9,496 nt of DNA from an uncultured Lachnospiraceae bacterium (GTDB taxonomy: Bacteria > Bacillota > Clostridia > Lachnospirales > Lachnospiraceae): contig CALZMS010000021.1 of the NCBI GenBank assembly GCA_945788595.1, forward strand, positions 1 through 9,496. Reading direction: 5' to 3'. Shown here one piece after another: positions 2,756-9,208 of the stretch. The position numbers were made by a program, and so were the translations under genes. Within the stretch, counting starts at the first letter, position 1. The number at the start of each line of letters is the position of its first letter. Below the pieces are notes generated by a model. The model saw only the letters and a list, made by a program, of their open reading frames with translations, made no database searches and was not told where the DNA came from.

Positions 2756-4195
2756 ATGAAGAAATGGGTTTCTACAGTAGCTGTCTGCATGACAGCAGCC
2801 ATGCTGATGGGCTGCGGCAGTGGCGGCAATGACACCAAAGTGGCAGTGGATTCGGTGGGAAATATCACCGGACTTGGCAGTCTGGGAGTATCGGACAAGT
2901 TCAGCGGTATGGTTGTGTCGGAGGACGAGATCAAAATCGAAAAAAACAGCGGACTTTCCGTCAAAGAGGTCAAAGTCAACGAAGGAGATGTGGTTAAGGA
3001 AGGCCAGGTTTTGTTTGTGTATGATACAGGCTCACTGGAACTGACGTTGGAAAAACAGAAACTGGAGCTGGAACAGCTGCAGACAACCATTGAAAGCAAG
3101 ACAAAAGAAATTGCACAGCTGAAAAAAGATGCAAAAGGTACAAAAGGCAGCACAAAGCTTGAATACAGTATTCAGATCCAGACAAATGAAGCAGATATCA
3201 AGGAAGCTGAATACAATGCCAAGTTAAAAGAAAAAGAGATTGAAGAGACAAAGAACTCTCTTGAGAATGTCAGCGTGACAAGTCCCATTGATGCTACCGT
3301 AAAAAGTATTGCGTCTGACGGACAAAGCGGTGACGGCAGCATTGCAGATGATGGATCTGAAAGTGGTGACGGCAGTAATTCGGATGCATTCATCGTACTG
3401 ACGAAGTCTGATTCCTTTGAGATTAAGGGAACCATCAATGAGCTTAGCGCCCGCTCTTTATCAGAAGGCATGCCGCTGTTGATCCGTTCTCGTGTAGACA
3501 GTACACAAACATGGACTGGAACTCTGGAAAGAATCGACTGGGAAAAAACAGAAACATCCGATAATAATGCGTATATGTCTGGAAGTTCCTCTGACACCAT
3601 GACCACCTCTTCCAAATATCCGTTTTATGTTTCTCTGGATTCTCAGGAGGGGCTGGTTCTTGGTCAGCATGTGTATATTGAGACAAATGTGGAGGATGGG
3701 GCCACGGAGGATGCGGCACAGTTTTCCCTTCCTTCTTATTACATCGTGGATGTGGATACCGGCTCTCCCTATGTGTGGGCAGAAGGCAGCAACGGCAAGC
3801 TGGAAAAGAGAAATGTTGAATTAGGTGAATATGATCAGGATATGGATCAGTATCCTATCATTTCCGGCCTGGTATTGACAGATTACATTGCCTTCCCGTC
3901 TGAGGATTGTAAGGCTGGCGCGGCAGCTGAGCACTATGATCAGTATTCCGATGATGGAGACGCGGCTACAGGAATCATGGATGGCGGCGTGGATTCTTAT
4001 GACGAAGGCACCATGGGTGGTGAAGAGTATTACGATGAAGGGTCTGTGGATTCCTACGATGAGGGAGCCATGGACGATGGTATGGATTCTTACGGTGAAG
4101 GAACCACGGACGATAGCATGGAGTCTTACGATGACGGTTTCGTAGAGGATGGAGAAGGCAGCGTTGAGGATCTTACCGGTGAAGATGCGGAATAA
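2756..4195 (+). CDS. HlyD/MacA-type adaptor lipoprotein of the ABC exporter, with acidic repeat tail
   Basis: Extracytoplasmic adaptor (membrane fusion protein) predicted to sit on the permease encoded downstream. It is 479 residues long. Residues 1-20 form a lipoprotein signal peptide with lipobox L17-M-G-C20, so the mature protein should be lipid-anchored on the outer face. The first half of a lipoyl-like domain is at ~45-92 (VKEVKVNEGDVVKEGQVLF), a coiled-coil hairpin at ~93-170, and the second lipoyl half from V174 (VTSPIDATVKS), with an unusual Gly/Asp/Ser loop at ~187-212. The beta-barrel (FEIKGTINELSARSL) and membrane-proximal region (GKLEKRNVELGEY, YIAFPSED) follow. From about residue 392 the family fold ends and an ~88-residue acidic Tyr/Asp/Gly/Met-rich tail begins. 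It is clearly paralogous to the second adaptor. The substrate is unknown; in the Bacillus YknWXYZ and enteric MacAB systems the cargo is peptides or drugs. Confidence 0.9.
   Translation: MKKWVSTVAVCMTAAMLMGCGSGGNDTKVAVDSVGNITGLGSLGVSDKFSGMVVSEDEIKIEKNSGLSVKEVKVNEGDVVKEGQVLFVYDTGSLELTLEKQKLELEQLQTTIESKTKEIAQLKKDAKGTKGSTKLEYSIQIQTNEADIKEAEYNAKLKEKEIEETKNSLENVSVTSPIDATVKSIASDGQSGDGSIADDGSESGDGSNSDAFIVLTKSDSFEIKGTINELSARSLSEGMPLLIRSRVDSTQTWTGTLERIDWEKTETSDNNAYMSGSSSDTMTTSSKYPFYVSLDSQEGLVLGQHVYIETNVEDGATEDAAQFSLPSYYIVDVDTGSPYVWAEGSNGKLEKRNVELGEYDQDMDQYPIISGLVLTDYIAFPSEDCKAGAAAEHYDQYSDDGDAATGIMDGGVDSYDEGTMGGEEYYDEGSVDSYDEGAMDDGMDSYGEGTTDDSMESYDDGFVEDGEGSVEDLTGEDAE
3989..4153 (+). repeat. Degenerate ~12-codon repeats encoding an acidic Tyr-rich tail
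   Basis: In-frame repeats with core (V/M)(D/E)SY(D/G)(E/D)G start at residues 412, 431, 443 and 455 of the first adaptor, with a diverged EEYYDEG copy near 422. The last three have a period of 12 residues (36 bp). Third codon positions vary between copies while D/E, S, Y and G are kept, suggesting that the protein composition is under selection. The function is unknown. Confidence 0.8.
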
Positions 4196-4213: not shown

Positions 4214-4885
4214 ATGATTCTTGAAATGACAGATGTATGCAAAGATTACTTCCGCGGTAAGATTCCGGTTCCGGTATTGAAAGAGATCAATCTTAAGGTG
4301 GAAGAGGGCGAGTATATCGCTATTATGGGTCCCTCCGGTTCTGGCAAGACAACGCTGATGAATCTGGTAGGGTGCCTGGATGTGCCGACGTCCGGCACAT
4401 TGAAACTTAATGATGTGGACGTTTCCACACAGACGGAAGATCAGCTGGCAAAACTGCGAAACAGCTTTATCGGATTTGTTTTTCAGCAGTTTCACCTGCT
4501 TCCGGAGATGGATGCCAGAGACAATGTGGCATTGCCGCTTTTGTATGCGGGTGTAGGTCTTAAGGAACGTCGTGAGAAAGCTGAAGAAGCCTTGAAAATG
4601 GTGGGTCTGGAAGAAAGAATCCATTTTAAACCTAATCAGTTGTCCGGTGGTCAGTGTCAGAGAGTGGCAATTGCCAGAGCAGTGGTAGGAAAGCCCAAGC
4701 TTCTTCTGGCAGATGAACCTACAGGTGCGCTGGATACGGCATCCGGAGAACAGGTTATGGAGATTTTTTCCGAATTGAACAGACAGGGAATTACCATAGT
4801 CATGATCACGCATGAGCCGTCCATTGCTGCCTGTGCGAACAAGATCTATCACATTCGCGATGGTGTGCTGACGGCAGACAGATAG
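4214..4885 (+). CDS. ABC exporter ATP-binding subunit (MacB/LolD/YknY type)
   Basis: Cytoplasmic ATPase powering the exporter. Its 223 residues are the normal length for a stand-alone MacB/LolD-type nucleotide-binding domain. All motifs are intact: Walker A G39-PSGSGK-T46, Q-loop Q91 (GFVFQQFHLLPEM), signature L143-SGG-Q147 followed by CQRVAIARA, Walker B LLLADE with catalytic E168, D-loop GALD (to D174), and H-loop H200 (ITHEP). The Cys after the signature replaces the more usual Gln (LSGGQQQRV), a mild variation. GGAGGA at 4201-4206 lies 7 nt before the ATG. The gene is 18 nt after the first adaptor and 14 nt before the second, so the ATPase sits between two adaptors in one operon. Confidence 0.96.
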   Translation: MILEMTDVCKDYFRGKIPVPVLKEINLKVEEGEYIAIMGPSGSGKTTLMNLVGCLDVPTSGTLKLNDVDVSTQTEDQLAKLRNSFIGFVFQQFHLLPEMDARDNVALPLLYAGVGLKERREKAEEALKMVGLEERIHFKPNQLSGGQCQRVAIARAVVGKPKLLLADEPTGALDTASGEQVMEIFSELNRQGITIVMITHEPSIAACANKIYHIRDGVLTADR

Positions 4886-4894
4886 GAGTGGAAG
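4884..4894 (+). promoter_or_regulatory. Ribosome binding site deciding the second adaptor's start
   Basis: A double purine-rich element (GGAG at 4885-4888, GGAAG at 4890-4894) overlaps the ATPase stop codon and precedes the ATG at 4900 by 5 nt. The in-frame GTG at 4888 has no such site upstream. Confidence 0.65.
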
Positions 4895-4899
4895 TTTAC

Positions 4900-6726
4900 A
4901 TGAAAAATAAGAAAGCAAAGATTGCGATCCGTATCCTGGCTGTCGTTCTGGCAGCGGGTGTTGTGACCGGCGCAGTGTTCGGTGTCCGGGCGGCGCAGGG
5001 AGGCAACAATGCGGTAGGCGTCTATCAGTTGTCAAATATGACTTATACCAGTGAAGATATGGGCGGCGGATCAGAAATGAGCGGAACAGTCAGTGCCGAT
5101 CAGGTGCAGACTGTGTATATTTCGGATACGCAGACGGTTACCAAAGTTTTTGTGTCAGAAGGGCAGCAGGTAAAGGCTGGAGATCCACTGATCTCCTACG
5201 ATACGACATTGACTGATATCGAGGTGACCAGAAAGGATCTAGAAATTCAGAAACAAAAGATTGAGCTGGAGAATCTGCAGAAGCAGGTAAAGACAGGAAG
5301 AAGGCTCAGTGCTGTGCCTGAAGAGGAGGCCGGTAAAGGAGAAAGTGATGTGCAGCAGACATCCAGCGTGGCGGAAGCTTCCGAGTCTTCGGGGACATCA
5401 GAATCTTCGATAACGTCAGGATCTTCAATCCCTTCAGAACCGTCGGAACCCTCAGAACCATCAAAACCCTCAGAGCCGTCGGAACCCTCAGAACCCTCAG
5501 AACCGTCGGAACCCTCAGAACCGTCGGAACCCTCAGAGCCGTCGGAACCCTCAGAACCATCGGAGCCTTCAGAACCATCGACACCCTCAGAACCGTCGGT
5601 ACCTTCAGGATCGTCAGAAACACCGGTGCAGCCGGAGAACAACGGCAGTATGGTAACGAATGGTGTTGTAAATACTTACTATGTGGTGCAGGGGGAGGGC
5701 ACAGAGAAATCTCCGAAGTTTGTCATTCTGGCTGATGATTTTGAAATCAGTGATACTTTGCTGGATGCCCTGGATCTGAAAGCCAGCAAAAATTATCTGA
5801 TTTTTGTGAGCACAGAAGAGAATAAGGTTTCCGGTGAGATTTTGACGAAATATGGCCTTGTATGTACCAAGAAGAGCAATGGAAGCTATAGCTTTTCTTT
5901 CTTTGATGCTTCTGAATTTACCTATAAACCTTCAACGGAAGACCCTGGAACGGTCGATCCTGGTATAGGAGGCGGCGGAGGCACGTACGATGACTCCAAG
6001 CTGACCGCGTCTGAAATTGCGGAGATGAAAAAGCAGATTAAAGAAACCGATCTGAGTATTCGTGTGGCCGAAAATGAGCTGGCACAGATGAAACGTGAAC
6101 TGGACAATGGTCAGGTGCTGGCTACGGTAGATGGACGTGTGTCTGCCGTGCAGGATGCAGACCAGTCCCGGGCAGATGGAACTCCCATGATCAAAGTAAC
6201 AGGTACCGGAGGATATGAAGTCCAGTGTACGGTGGATGAACTGAGTCGGGATACGCTGCAGATCGGAGAAGAAGTTCAGGTGATGTCTTATGAAAGCGGT
6301 ATGACATACACCGGTACAGTAAACAAGATAGGTGATATGCCTACGTCAGATCAGGGATATTATTACGGACAGTCTTCCAATACTTCTTATTATCCGTTCA
6401 CCGTGGTGGTGTCTGAGGATGCGGATCTGTCGGATAATGAGTGGGTATCTGTAAAACGAAACAGCAGCAATGTCTCCGGGGGATCCGGCTTCTATCTGGA
6501 AAATATGTTTATTCTGACGGAAGGCAGCAAGAGTTATGTTTATGTGCGCGGAGAAGGTGACAAGCTGGAAAAACGCCAGGTAAAGACGGGAACCATCTCT
6601 TATGGTTCTACGGAGATCCTTTCCGGATTGGACAGAGACACTGACTGGATTGCTTTCCCGTATGGTAAGACCGTCAAAGACGGGGCTTCCACGAGAGAAG
6701 CTACCATGGATGAACTGTACAGCTAA
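4900..6726 (+). CDS. HlyD/MacA-type adaptor with (Pro-Ser-Glu) stalk and extra domain inserted in the hairpin
   Basis: Second adaptor of the exporter, 608 residues versus ~350-480 for most MacA/YknX-like proteins. Residues 8-29 are a transmembrane helix or uncleaved signal. The lipoyl first half is at ~58-101 (VTKVFVSEGQQVKAGDPL) and the first coiled-coil helix at ~102-145. Then comes an insertion: a Ser/Glu-rich stretch (~150-177), 20 Pro-Ser-X triplets (178-237), an unrecognised ~100-residue domain (~248-349) and a Gly-rich linker (~355-362). The second coiled-coil helix (~366-405) and lipoyl second half (GQVLATVDGRVSAV, from ~403) resume the fold, followed by the beta-barrel (YEVQCTVDELSRDTL) and membrane-proximal part (GDKLEKRQVKTG, DWIAFPYG). 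The C-terminal half aligns by eye with the first adaptor, indicating duplication. The insertion sits where MacA docks on TolC, so a wall-crossing or cargo-contacting role is inferred. The inserted domain matches nothing I recognise. Confidence 0.9.
   Translation: MKNKKAKIAIRILAVVLAAGVVTGAVFGVRAAQGGNNAVGVYQLSNMTYTSEDMGGGSEMSGTVSADQVQTVYISDTQTVTKVFVSEGQQVKAGDPLISYDTTLTDIEVTRKDLEIQKQKIELENLQKQVKTGRRLSAVPEEEAGKGESDVQQTSSVAEASESSGTSESSITSGSSIPSEPSEPSEPSKPSEPSEPSEPSEPSEPSEPSEPSEPSEPSEPSEPSEPSTPSEPSVPSGSSETPVQPENNGSMVTNGVVNTYYVVQGEGTEKSPKFVILADDFEISDTLLDALDLKASKNYLIFVSTEENKVSGEILTKYGLVCTKKSNGSYSFSFFDASEFTYKPSTEDPGTVDPGIGGGGGTYDDSKLTASEIAEMKKQIKETDLSIRVAENELAQMKRELDNGQVLATVDGRVSAVQDADQSRADGTPMIKVTGTGGYEVQCTVDELSRDTLQIGEEVQVMSYESGMTYTGTVNKIGDMPTSDQGYYYGQSSNTSYYPFTVVVSEDADLSDNEWVSVKRNSSNVSGGSGFYLENMFILTEGSKSYVYVRGEGDKLEKRQVKTGTISYGSTEILSGLDRDTDWIAFPYGKTVKDGASTREATMDELYS
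5431..5610 (+). repeat. 20 tandem 9-bp units encoding Pro-Ser-X (16 of 20 are Pro-Ser-Glu)
   Basis: Twenty consecutive 9-nt units encode PSE except unit 4 (PSK), 17 (PST), 19 (PSV) and 20 (PSG). Units alternate between a TCA-serine and a TCG-serine form, perfectly from unit 8 to unit 20, so the real duplicating unit is about 18 bp (CCNTCGGAA plus CCNTCAGAA). This is an in-frame minisatellite: copy-number change would alter stalk length without breaking the gene. Confidence 0.97.
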
Positions 6727-6737
6727 GGAGGTAGGGC

Positions 6738-7994
6738 ATGCGCGAAAATATTAAACTTTCCCTGCAGGGTATATGGAGCCACAAAATGCGCTCCATGCTG
6801 ACCATGCTGGGCATTATTATAGGTATCGCATCCATCATTGCCATTGTCTCCACGATCACCGGAAACAGTGAGATGATCAAGGAAAGTCTGATCGGATCTA
6901 ACAATAATGTGGTTACTGTCAGTCTGTACGATGGTGAATGGGAATACGATATGCAGTATAGCAGCAATCCAGAGGGCATCATGCCGCTGGACAGTGAGTT
7001 TAAGGATGAACTGGAAGCTATAGATACTGTGGATAAGGTCGCTTTTTACAATAGTCGTGAGTACAGCGACAATAGCATTTATCGTCTGGACACTTCTTTT
7101 ACCGGAGGTATCTATGGCGTCGATGATCAGTATTTTGGTCTGTATAATTATCAGGTGATCAATGGACGGGCACTTTTACAGGCTGATTATGATAATTTCC
7201 GTAAAGTAGTCATTTTGGATAATACTGCAGCTTCGTCTCTGTTTCCGGGAGAAAATCCACTGGGACAGGTGGTGGAGATCAGTGGAGAGCCATTTACGGT
7301 GGTGGGCATTGTAAGCCAGACAAAATCTGTTGAGCTGAACATTAACAGTGTATCTGATTACTATACATATGCCAACACTTCCAGTGGTAAGATGTTTGTG
7401 ACCGGGGCTGTCTGGCCCATGATCTATCGGTTTGATGAGGTGCAGAAGATAGCTGTAAAAGCGGTGGATACGGATTCCATGACCAAAGCAGGTAAGGCAG
7501 TTGAAGACGCAGTAAATGAAAAACTGGGACTGACAGCGGAAAGTCAGTATCAGTTTAAGAGCCAGGATCTTTTGAAACAGGCAGAACAGCTGCAGGCCAT
7601 GAGTAATTCCACGAACCAGCAGCTGATCTGGATCGCCGGCATTTCTCTTCTGGTAGGCGGTATCGGTGTCATGAATATTATGTTGGTGACGGTAACAGAA
7701 CGTACCCAGGAGATCGGCCTCAAGAAAGCCATCGGTGCCAGAAAGCGAATGATTCTGGGACAGTTTTTGACAGAAGCAGCTGTGCTTACCAGTTTCGGAG
7801 GCGTGTTGGGTGTGATTTTTGGTATCGTTACAGCTAAATTACTGTCAAAGATCATGGGTATACCTACTGGATTAAGTATACCGTCCATGATCATTGCGGT
7901 GCTGTTTTCCATGTGTATTGGTCTGATTTTTGGGTTCCTTCCGGCCAGAAAAGCCGCAAATCTTAATCCGATCGATGCGCTCAGAAGTGAATAA
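6738..7994 (+). CDS. ABC exporter permease (MacB/FtsX-type, YknZ-like)
   Basis: Membrane subunit of the exporter, 418 residues, a normal length for a stand-alone MacB-type permease. It has the N-terminal cytoplasmic helix (NIKLSLQGIWSHKMRSMLTMLG), TM1 at ~20-40, a large extracytoplasmic domain at ~43-290 (MacB_PCD type, with INGRALLQADYDNFRKVVILD and NPLGQVVEISGEPFTVVGIV), then TM2 ~296-318, the conserved FtsX loop TERTQEIGLKKAIGARKRMIL at ~319-339, TM3 ~342-368 and TM4 ~380-404. It ends with the family hallmark NPIDALRSE. In MacB-type pumps this architecture moves substrates from the outer face by mechanotransmission instead of carrying them across the bilayer. AGGAGG (6726-6731) overlaps the adaptor stop codon and lies 6 nt before the ATG, implying coupled translation. 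It is the last gene of the operon. Confidence 0.96.
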   Translation: MRENIKLSLQGIWSHKMRSMLTMLGIIIGIASIIAIVSTITGNSEMIKESLIGSNNNVVTVSLYDGEWEYDMQYSSNPEGIMPLDSEFKDELEAIDTVDKVAFYNSREYSDNSIYRLDTSFTGGIYGVDDQYFGLYNYQVINGRALLQADYDNFRKVVILDNTAASSLFPGENPLGQVVEISGEPFTVVGIVSQTKSVELNINSVSDYYTYANTSSGKMFVTGAVWPMIYRFDEVQKIAVKAVDTDSMTKAGKAVEDAVNEKLGLTAESQYQFKSQDLLKQAEQLQAMSNSTNQQLIWIAGISLLVGGIGVMNIMLVTVTERTQEIGLKKAIGARKRMILGQFLTEAAVLTSFGGVLGVIFGIVTAKLLSKIMGIPTGLSIPSMIIAVLFSMCIGLIFGFLPARKAANLNPIDALRSE

Positions 7995-8215: not shown

Positions 8216-9208
8216 ATGTTTCGTAAAATCAAGAAAACAGCCATCCTGCTCGGATGTCTCTGTGCCGCATTGAGCCTGACCAAAAATCCGGTTTCAGCGG
8301 ATACACACAGCAAGCTGCTGGGCAGTATCAGCTGGGACAAAAAGGTGGCGGCCGATGTTAACGATTATTTAAATATTCGAATGAGTGCAGATGCAGGATC
8401 CAAAATCGTAGGAGTGCTGCTCCCTGGATGCACCGCTACAGTGGAAGGTACAGAAGGCAGCTGGACAAAAGTCAGATCCGGCAATATCAGCGGTTATGTA
8501 CTGACAAAATACGTGGTCAGTAAAGACGATGCCAGAAAGTTTTATAATGAGACTGTGGGAGCAACAGGAAAAGTAACAGCCAGCTCTCTGATCATTCGTG
8601 AGGAAGCTACAACAAATTCCGACAGACTGACATCTGTTCCCAGAGGAACTGTTCTTTCTCTGAAAAATCTGGAAGACGGCTGGTATAAAGTCAGCTGTGA
8701 TGGCGTCAACGGCTACGTGCTGGGAAGATACGTGAAAGAAAATGAACCTGAAGGTGCCATTACCAAGACCGCGTATGACAATTTAAAAGAAGAAACTAAG
8801 AAGGCCGTCGAAGAAGAAAAGAAATCCACTTCTTCCAACAAGAAGAAAAACAGCAATTATGTCATCAGCTGCAGTGACAGCGAGCTGGATATGCTGGCAG
8901 CTATCGTTTACTGCGAAGCTGGCGGTGAAAGCTATAAAGGTAAGCTGGCAGTAGCTGCCGTTGTTGTCAACCGTGTAAAGAGCAGCCGCTATCCGGATGA
9001 TGTAGAAGCTGTGATCAAGCAGAAGAGCCAGTTCTCTCCGGTACGCAGCGGACGGTTTGCCAAGACACTGAAGAAGGGTGCGCCGAGCTCCTGCTATGAT
9101 GCAGCAATAGAGGCACTTCAGGGAGAAAGCCCGGTAGGAAACGCCATGTCCTTCCGCGCCGGACACAGCAGAAAGGGCATTCAGATCGGCAACCAGTATT
9201 TCTTCTAA
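8216..9208 (+). CDS. Secreted SH3b-SH3b-SleB-type cell wall hydrolase
   Basis: Predicted exported peptidoglycan hydrolase of 330 residues. A signal peptide (basic MFRKIKK, hydrophobic core, likely cleavage after V26-S-A28) is followed by two bacterial SH3 domains at ~47-101 (YLNIRMSADAGSKIVGVL, GYVLTKYV) and ~118-173 (LIIREEATTNSDRLTSVP, GYVLGRYV), which usually bind wall peptides. A Lys/Glu/Ser-rich linker (~174-218) leads to a C-terminal Hydrolase_2/SleB-type domain (222-330: ELDMLAAIVYCEAGGES, KLAVAAVVVNRVKSSRYP, QFSPV, MSFRAG). E234 in YCEAGGE matches the presumed catalytic Glu of SleB/CwlJ transglycosylases. SleB itself is a spore germination enzyme with a different N-terminus, so a vegetative remodelling role is more likely here. 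AGGAGG at 8206-8211 supports the ATG. It stands alone behind its own promoter. Confidence 0.92.
   Translation: MFRKIKKTAILLGCLCAALSLTKNPVSADTHSKLLGSISWDKKVAADVNDYLNIRMSADAGSKIVGVLLPGCTATVEGTEGSWTKVRSGNISGYVLTKYVVSKDDARKFYNETVGATGKVTASSLIIREEATTNSDRLTSVPRGTVLSLKNLEDGWYKVSCDGVNGYVLGRYVKENEPEGAITKTAYDNLKEETKKAVEEEKKSTSSNKKKNSNYVISCSDSELDMLAAIVYCEAGGESYKGKLAVAAVVVNRVKSSRYPDDVEAVIKQKSQFSPVRSGRFAKTLKKGAPSSCYDAAIEALQGESPVGNAMSFRAGHSRKGIQIGNQYFF

Follow-up and report, generated by a model that had tools for sequence, protein, structure and literature searches.

A recurring domain and a variable acidic loop at the hairpin tip of one adaptor of a MacB-type exporter in Lachnospiraceae

Introduction

What does an exporter adaptor carry at its tip, where TolC would dock, in a bacterium that probably has a single membrane? 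A review, PMC5985334, raises in its accessible text the unanswered question of what adaptors do when no outer membrane is present, and that of PMC4446572 makes a similar point. Here, we analyzed a 9,496-nucleotide stretch of DNA (hereafter the window) from an uncultured Lachnospiraceae bacterium, positions 1-9,496 of contig CALZMS010000021.1 (GCA_945788595.1). In its exporter locus, a recurring domain and a fast-changing loop stand where TolC would dock, on one of two co-encoded adaptors. This is a concrete module that can be cut out, swapped and assayed, which makes the question of the adaptor's role directly testable.

Results

The exporter genes

The window holds part of a potassium-uptake system, namely a TrkH-like fragment (recognized by eye) and TrkA, and a SpoU methyltransferase, on the forward strand. 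These are followed by genes for adaptor 1, a MacB-type ATPase, adaptor 2 and a MacB-type permease, all on the same strand (Table 1). The four-gene cluster likely encodes one exporter. The permease gene follows adaptor 2 in all 42 relative loci (L004-L016 and L024-L052), and all four genes occur in this order in 21 of the 42, most of the others being too short to tell. In one locus (L034), adaptor 1 adjoins adaptor 2 with no ATPase gene between them. The top NCBIfam match of the window's ATPase was the MacB model, with a score under that model's full-length cut-off.

A gene for a SleB/CwlJ-type wall hydrolase with SH3 domains lies just 3' of the exporter genes (8216-9208, forward strand). No SleB-type hydrolase gene was found near the exporter in loci L004-L016 (flanks up to 6 kb). 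Comparison of neighbours among the relatives returned mainly antisense frames of core genes, and no recurring partner gene.

Table 1 Features of the exporter locus in the window.
Feature	Residues	Position	Strand	Support
Adaptor 1 (MFP1, 479 aa), lipoprotein-like N-terminus (LMGC), acidic C-terminal repeats		2756..4195	+	
MacB/LolD-type ABC ATPase		4214..4885	+	PF00005 E 1.9e-35
Adaptor 2 (MFP2, 608 aa), bearer of the tip insert		4900..6726	+	
N-terminal helix	4-32	4909..4995	+	structure model
First lipoyl half motif	80-101	5137..5202	+	PF13533 31.4 bits, cut-off 29.8
Hairpin helix 1	106-132	5215..5295	+	structure model
Whole tip insert	137-368	5308..6003	+	alignment boundaries
Ser-rich stretch	150-177	5347..5430	+	low model confidence
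20 Pro-Ser-X units	178-237	5431..5610	+	mostly pLDDT under 50
Tip domain, predicted beta-beta-alpha-beta-beta-beta	251-343	5650..5928	+	
Gly-rich linker	341-366	5920..5997	+	pLDDT under 50 over 345-364
Hairpin helix 2	370-402	6007..6105	+	structure model
Second lipoyl half and barrel start	406-491	6115..6372	+	PF13437 35.9 bits, cut-off 22.2
MacB-type permease (MacB_PCD + FtsX)		6738..7994	+	PF12704 E 3.6e-33, PF02687 E 1.3e-21

Adaptor 2 carries an insert between the helices of its hairpin

The adaptor 2 frame runs from an ATG at 4900 to a stop codon ending at 6726 (608 aa), and the ORF list also holds a longer form from a GTG at 4888 (612 aa). By its sequence, adaptor 2 is a MacA/YknX-type adaptor (HlyD-family membrane fusion protein): lipoyl halves flank a hairpin of antiparallel helices, and genes for a MacB-type ATPase and permease accompany it. 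Its score with NCBIfam TIGR01730 (RND_mfp) was 59.8 bits, below the cut-off of 94.9. The Pfam scan of the window listed PF13533 and PF13437 and not PF25984, a YknX-type model; among the matches listed, 114 of 120 homologues carry a precomputed PF25984. In a second protein search, 1405 proteins scored at E 0.001 or better, which suggests that the exporter is common among bacteria that have been little studied; the check for the insert covered part of the 120 listed. The hydrophobic N-terminal helix would anchor the protein in the membrane. No LPXTG-type sortase signal was seen at the C-terminus, which ends in DELYS (translation inspected by eye).

The insert comprises 232 residues by alignment, is flanked by the two lipoyl halves, and runs in the order Ser-rich stretch, 20 Pro-Ser-X units, domain of ~90 residues and Gly-rich linker. 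In the structure model, helices 106-132 and 370-402 are predicted to pair, with the antiparallel hairpin retained and the lipoyl halves joined. A structural match (71 residues, rmsd 1.9 A, model range 99-402) needs both hairpin helices side by side, as seen in the match tables. The full-length model has a pTM of 0.33, too low to place the tip domain on the hairpin.

A sequence-only reading of the window had described the second adaptor of a MacB-type exporter with an insert at the hairpin tip, and this description holds, as does the place of the insert between the two helices. Its size estimate of ~215 residues was too small, and its claim that the hairpin had been replaced was wrong, since both helices are present in the model and paired in the structural match. 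The ~100-residue domain that it proposed is borne out by a profile match to residues 257-338 and by a model in which residues 251-343 fold alone, and the Gly-rich linker is found at residues ~341-366. That reading had asked whether the insertion keeps to its place between the lipoyl halves and whether the stalk differs in length among homologues; both hold in the proteins examined.

Adaptor 1 has, by its sequence, a plain hairpin. No insert is present in any of 13 proteins (the window's and twelve relatives), and their hairpin regions span 68 or 88 residues. A simple lipobox pattern marks the window's adaptor 1, and those of four of the twelve relatives, as lipoprotein-like. The tail is acidic in all 13; in the window it holds an acidic Tyr-Asp-Glu-Gly-like tandem repeat (4047-4134), and the last 60 residues have a net charge of -24.

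The tip domain is the constant part of the insert

Modelled alone, residues 251-343 are predicted to fold with a mean pLDDT of 90.5 and a pTM of 0.81. An iterated profile seeded with the window's domain, in which it covers residues 257-338, matched 152 of 165 adaptors. The domain was detected in 50 of 299 genomes of the host's bacterial family, and 58 of 59 matches overlap an adaptor match or sit within 2.5 kb of one. Eight short proteins with the domain look without exception like fragments of such an adaptor. No Pfam family scored above cut-off in any of 25 copies. The sub-threshold matches were four single weak ones, the best being PF01105 (19.4 bits, cut-off 25.9); the window's copy gave PF07894 at 16.0 bits, under the cut-off of 21.4. 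Comparison of the domain with solved structures gave no clear match.

The domain can be absent, as the iterated profile found no match in 13 of 44 adaptors from the loci. Two of the adaptors without it (L019 and L021) are plain ones outside this kind, and four without a match (L010, L011, L013 and L045) have only low complexity by eye. Across the homologues, the tip domain is the constant part of the insert and the low-complexity segment the variable part. Two or three copies of the domain occur per adaptor frame in G105, G102 (L051), G090, G113 and G239. In another genome (G204), two separate contigs each carry a tip-domain adaptor.

The repeat looks held at the protein level and the spacer varies in length

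The exact count of Pro-Ser-X units is 20, as the sequence-only reading had it, and 16 of them have Glu as X. Tandem Repeats Finder (TRF) placed a tandem array at 5434-5619 (score 197). Bases 1 and 2 of the Pro and Ser codons are invariant over the 20 units, while the third bases differ in 74% (Pro) and 51% (Ser) of unit pairs. This array is not a chance feature, and synonymous codon drift with invariant Pro and Ser makes the repeat look held at the protein level. The exact repeat has no second copy in the host's own 57%-complete genome and none in 40 relatives. The Pro-Ser-Glu loop is predicted to be disordered.

Among 11 proteins with 99.6-100% identity outside the spacer (P0001-P0010 and P0012), the spacer is 33 to 117 residues long, each length being divisible by three. 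It is possibly a length-variable repeat locus, and assembly collapse of repeats may explain part of the length differences.

The low-complexity segment occupies different connections of the domain

We compared the place of the segment in a first set of 121 proteins, the window's included. It lies ahead of the domain in 18 proteins, among them the window's, and a Lys/Glu/Leu-rich coiled-coil-like segment precedes the domain instead in 39. It falls inside the domain in 57, after model position 39 (window residues 291/292, the junction of the helix and the third strand). In five, it precedes the last strand, following model position 77-78, which corresponds to window residue 324-325 and lies between the fourth and fifth strands, and the last-strand motif was detected in four of these. 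One protein has almost no spacer and one is a fragment; P0074 carries the domain with a near-absent spacer. In the interrupted proteins (the 57 plus five from the loci), 27-40 residues tie the domain to helix 1 and 23-36 tie it to helix 2.

In profile-profile comparison with the intact domain, the piece before the loop covered columns 13-41 (P 2.5e-4, with a probability of only 43%). Columns 42-90 were covered by the piece after the loop (P 1.5e-9, 96% probability), so the two pieces abut. When proteins P0058-P0120 were searched with the intact-domain profile alone, both halves were found in 2 of 63, the first half in 7 and the second half in 40. The piece before the loop alone exceeded 10 bits in 3 of these 63 proteins versus 0 of 315 shuffles. 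Because the intact-only profile rarely finds both halves, the claim of a split domain rests on the iterated profile and on the profile-profile comparison, in which the first half is weak.

We built a tree of the adaptor core with the insert removed; of its 80 dereplicated rows, 64 were scored, and these require nine changes among six loop states. P0045 and P0014 are the window's nearest kin on this tree, and in them the coiled-coil-like form takes the place of the low-complexity segment. In the 57 proteins with an interrupted domain and the five with the segment before the last strand, the segment leaves from the domain and comes back to it, which makes it a loop and not a mast. In the window, only ~28 residues tie the tip domain to helix 2, so the domain would rise at most ~10 nm with the linker fully stretched (estimated from residue count). 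We interpret the window's segment as a bight projecting from the tip rather than as a stalk. A loop that shifts among three connections of a small domain clearly illustrates, in nature, how a disordered segment can change place on a fold that stays the same.

Outer membrane and TolC docking

Omp85 was found in none of 41 genomes examined, including the 57%-complete genome of the host, which is probably a single-membrane bacterium. This is consistent with the sequence-only reading, in which the adaptor has no outer-membrane partner. The TolC-like family PF02321 had no match in the host's own genome. It scored over cut-off in 16 of the 41 genomes, all without Omp85 (G691, G692, G684, G555, G454, G357 and others); the matches are mostly ORFs of ~370-550 aa, some with two matches. 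A motif with the spacing of RLS, R-x2/3-L-x6-S/T, occurred near the insert edges in 2 of 165 adaptors, and the window protein is not among them. RLS is named as the tip motif of TolC-docking adaptors in the accessible text of PMC4446572.

Clues to contact with the cell wall

All 165 inserts are net negative. In a Pfam scan of 26 homologues, a bacterial SH3 domain in the loop scored above cut-off in one (P0086, 30.9 versus 27) and below it in three (P0065, P0121 and P0123). The loop of L041 matched the Listeria-Bacteroides repeat above cut-off (34.4 versus 27). Three repeat-only matches among those listed (L094, L095 and L096), from the same bacterial family, are wall or surface proteins by eye, with Pro-Ser-Thr, Glu-Pro-Thr and Pro-Ser-Glu repeats. 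One has lectin-like and leucine-rich parts, its start lying beyond the sequence examined; another resembles NlpC/P60 wall proteins and has SH3-like parts; and the third is a surface protein of large size, anchored in the membrane at its C-terminus. In the accessible text of PMC5768738, the modelled Spr0693 tube is ~154 A tall, about as much as the inner wall zone is deep, and ends close to the wall's inner face; that of PMC5985334 reports that purified YknX binds peptidoglycan. Together, the SH3 and repeat matches in loops, the repeat-bearing wall proteins, the height of the Spr0693 tube and the binding by YknX suggest that the tip meets the wall.

Discussion

Our preferred reading, to which we give a probability of about 0.45, is that the tip domain and the acidic Pro-Ser-Glu loop form a crown on a kept hairpin and dock the exit of the exporter in the cell wall. 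Together, the two adaptors would make up a hexameric tube like that of MacA, standing on the MacB-like permease, and the domains of adaptor 2 would ring its outer end, the docking place of TolC in diderms. The loops, with both ends near the tip, would reach into peptidoglycan and hold, space or seal the exit. The substrate would likely be an antimicrobial peptide or a similar toxic amphiphile, taken from the membrane side, as has been reported for YknXYZ and the Spr0693-0695 system. Slightly more tentatively, single-membrane gut Clostridia may have rebuilt the TolC-docking end of MacA-type adaptors into a wall-docking crown, with a new tip-only domain family in one to three tandem copies and acidic loops that reach the peptidoglycan from any of three connections, borne by one of the two adaptors of a mixed tube. 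Counting against a crown are the SH3-type domain above cut-off in just one of 26 loops, an acidity that is not specific to the tip but shared by all 13 adaptor 1 tails, the low pTM of the full-length model, and the 13 of 44 adaptors without a match to the tip domain.

In the main rival to docking in the wall, the tip domains together with the acidic loops would serve at the tube mouth as a gate or as a catcher of substrate, attracting cationic peptides or blocking the return of those expelled. The net negative charge of every insert would suit such a role, as would the handling of antimicrobial peptides by Gram-positive relatives (PMC5985334 and PMC8277102, accessible parts) and the flexible hairpin turn of Spr0693 described in the accessible text of PMC5768738. 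However, acidic low complexity is found in adaptor 1 tails too and the spacer can be nearly absent, and we regard this role as rather unlikely. The low-complexity loop could also be slippage-prone filler without function, the domain alone being what matters. Filler would fit a length that varies between 33 and 117 residues with near-identical flanks, and a loop whose type and place change repeatedly. Pro and Ser are nevertheless held despite codon drift, most members examined keep some spacer, and the net charge of the insert is negative throughout, making filler improbable.

We consider it very unlikely that the Pro-Ser-Glu segment is, as the sequence-only reading had proposed, a stalk on which a domain for capping or for binding cargo is raised to the surface of the wall. 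In favour of a stalk, the window's repeat comes ahead of the domain and has low model confidence, and wall or surface proteins of the host's family have like repeats. But in the 57 proteins with an interrupted domain and the five with the segment before the last strand, the segment cannot carry the domain outward; the ~28-residue linker fastens the window's domain to helix 2; near-identical proteins differ in spacer length; and relatives such as P0074 are nearly spacer-free. Finally, the tip domain could be a module that docks a partner, for example a wall hydrolase or the first adaptor, in the way that FtsX docks EnvC or PcsB. MacB-like permeases share their type with FtsX in the accessible text of PMC5985334, the window has the SleB-type hydrolase with SH3 domains downstream, and each operon encodes two adaptors. 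The hydrolase gene does not recur in loci L004-L016 within the flanks of up to 6 kb, though, and the neighbour comparison gave no recurring partner, leaving this explanation with hardly any credence.

We found no description of the tip domain or the repeat loop in Gram-positive adaptors in the open-access literature, which covers few subscription journals, in keeping with the suggestion in the sequence-only reading of a possibly undescribed architecture. An exchange of hairpin regions between adaptors and outer-membrane auxiliary proteins is described in the accessible text of PMC2850547. The Pro/Ser/Thr/Glu linkers of Gram-positive surface proteins resemble the repeat, with similar ones in L094, L095 and L096, but that of adaptor 2 is a loop inside an exporter adaptor with no sortase-type signal. 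In MacA of diderms (PDB 5NIK and 4DK0), the tip meets TolC, whereas the window's adaptor has no RLS-like motif and Omp85 is missing from all 41 genomes. YknX of Bacillus (YknWXYZ) is alike in its hairpin adaptor, in its separate genes for a MacB-type ATPase (YknY) and permease (YknZ), and in PF25984, carried by most listed homologues of adaptor 2. It differs in that the accessible text of PMC5985334 describes no tip domain or repeat loop for it, and in that the window's system has two adaptors. The best solved relative of adaptor 2 is Spr0693 of Streptococcus pneumoniae (PDB 5XU0; sequence profile E 4.1e-15). Spr0693 forms a hexameric MacA-like tube with a flexible hairpin turn (PMC5768738, accessible text). 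In the same text, the untraced turn of Spr0693 is Pro142-Gly163, 22 residues, compared with 232 residues that include a predicted domain in adaptor 2.
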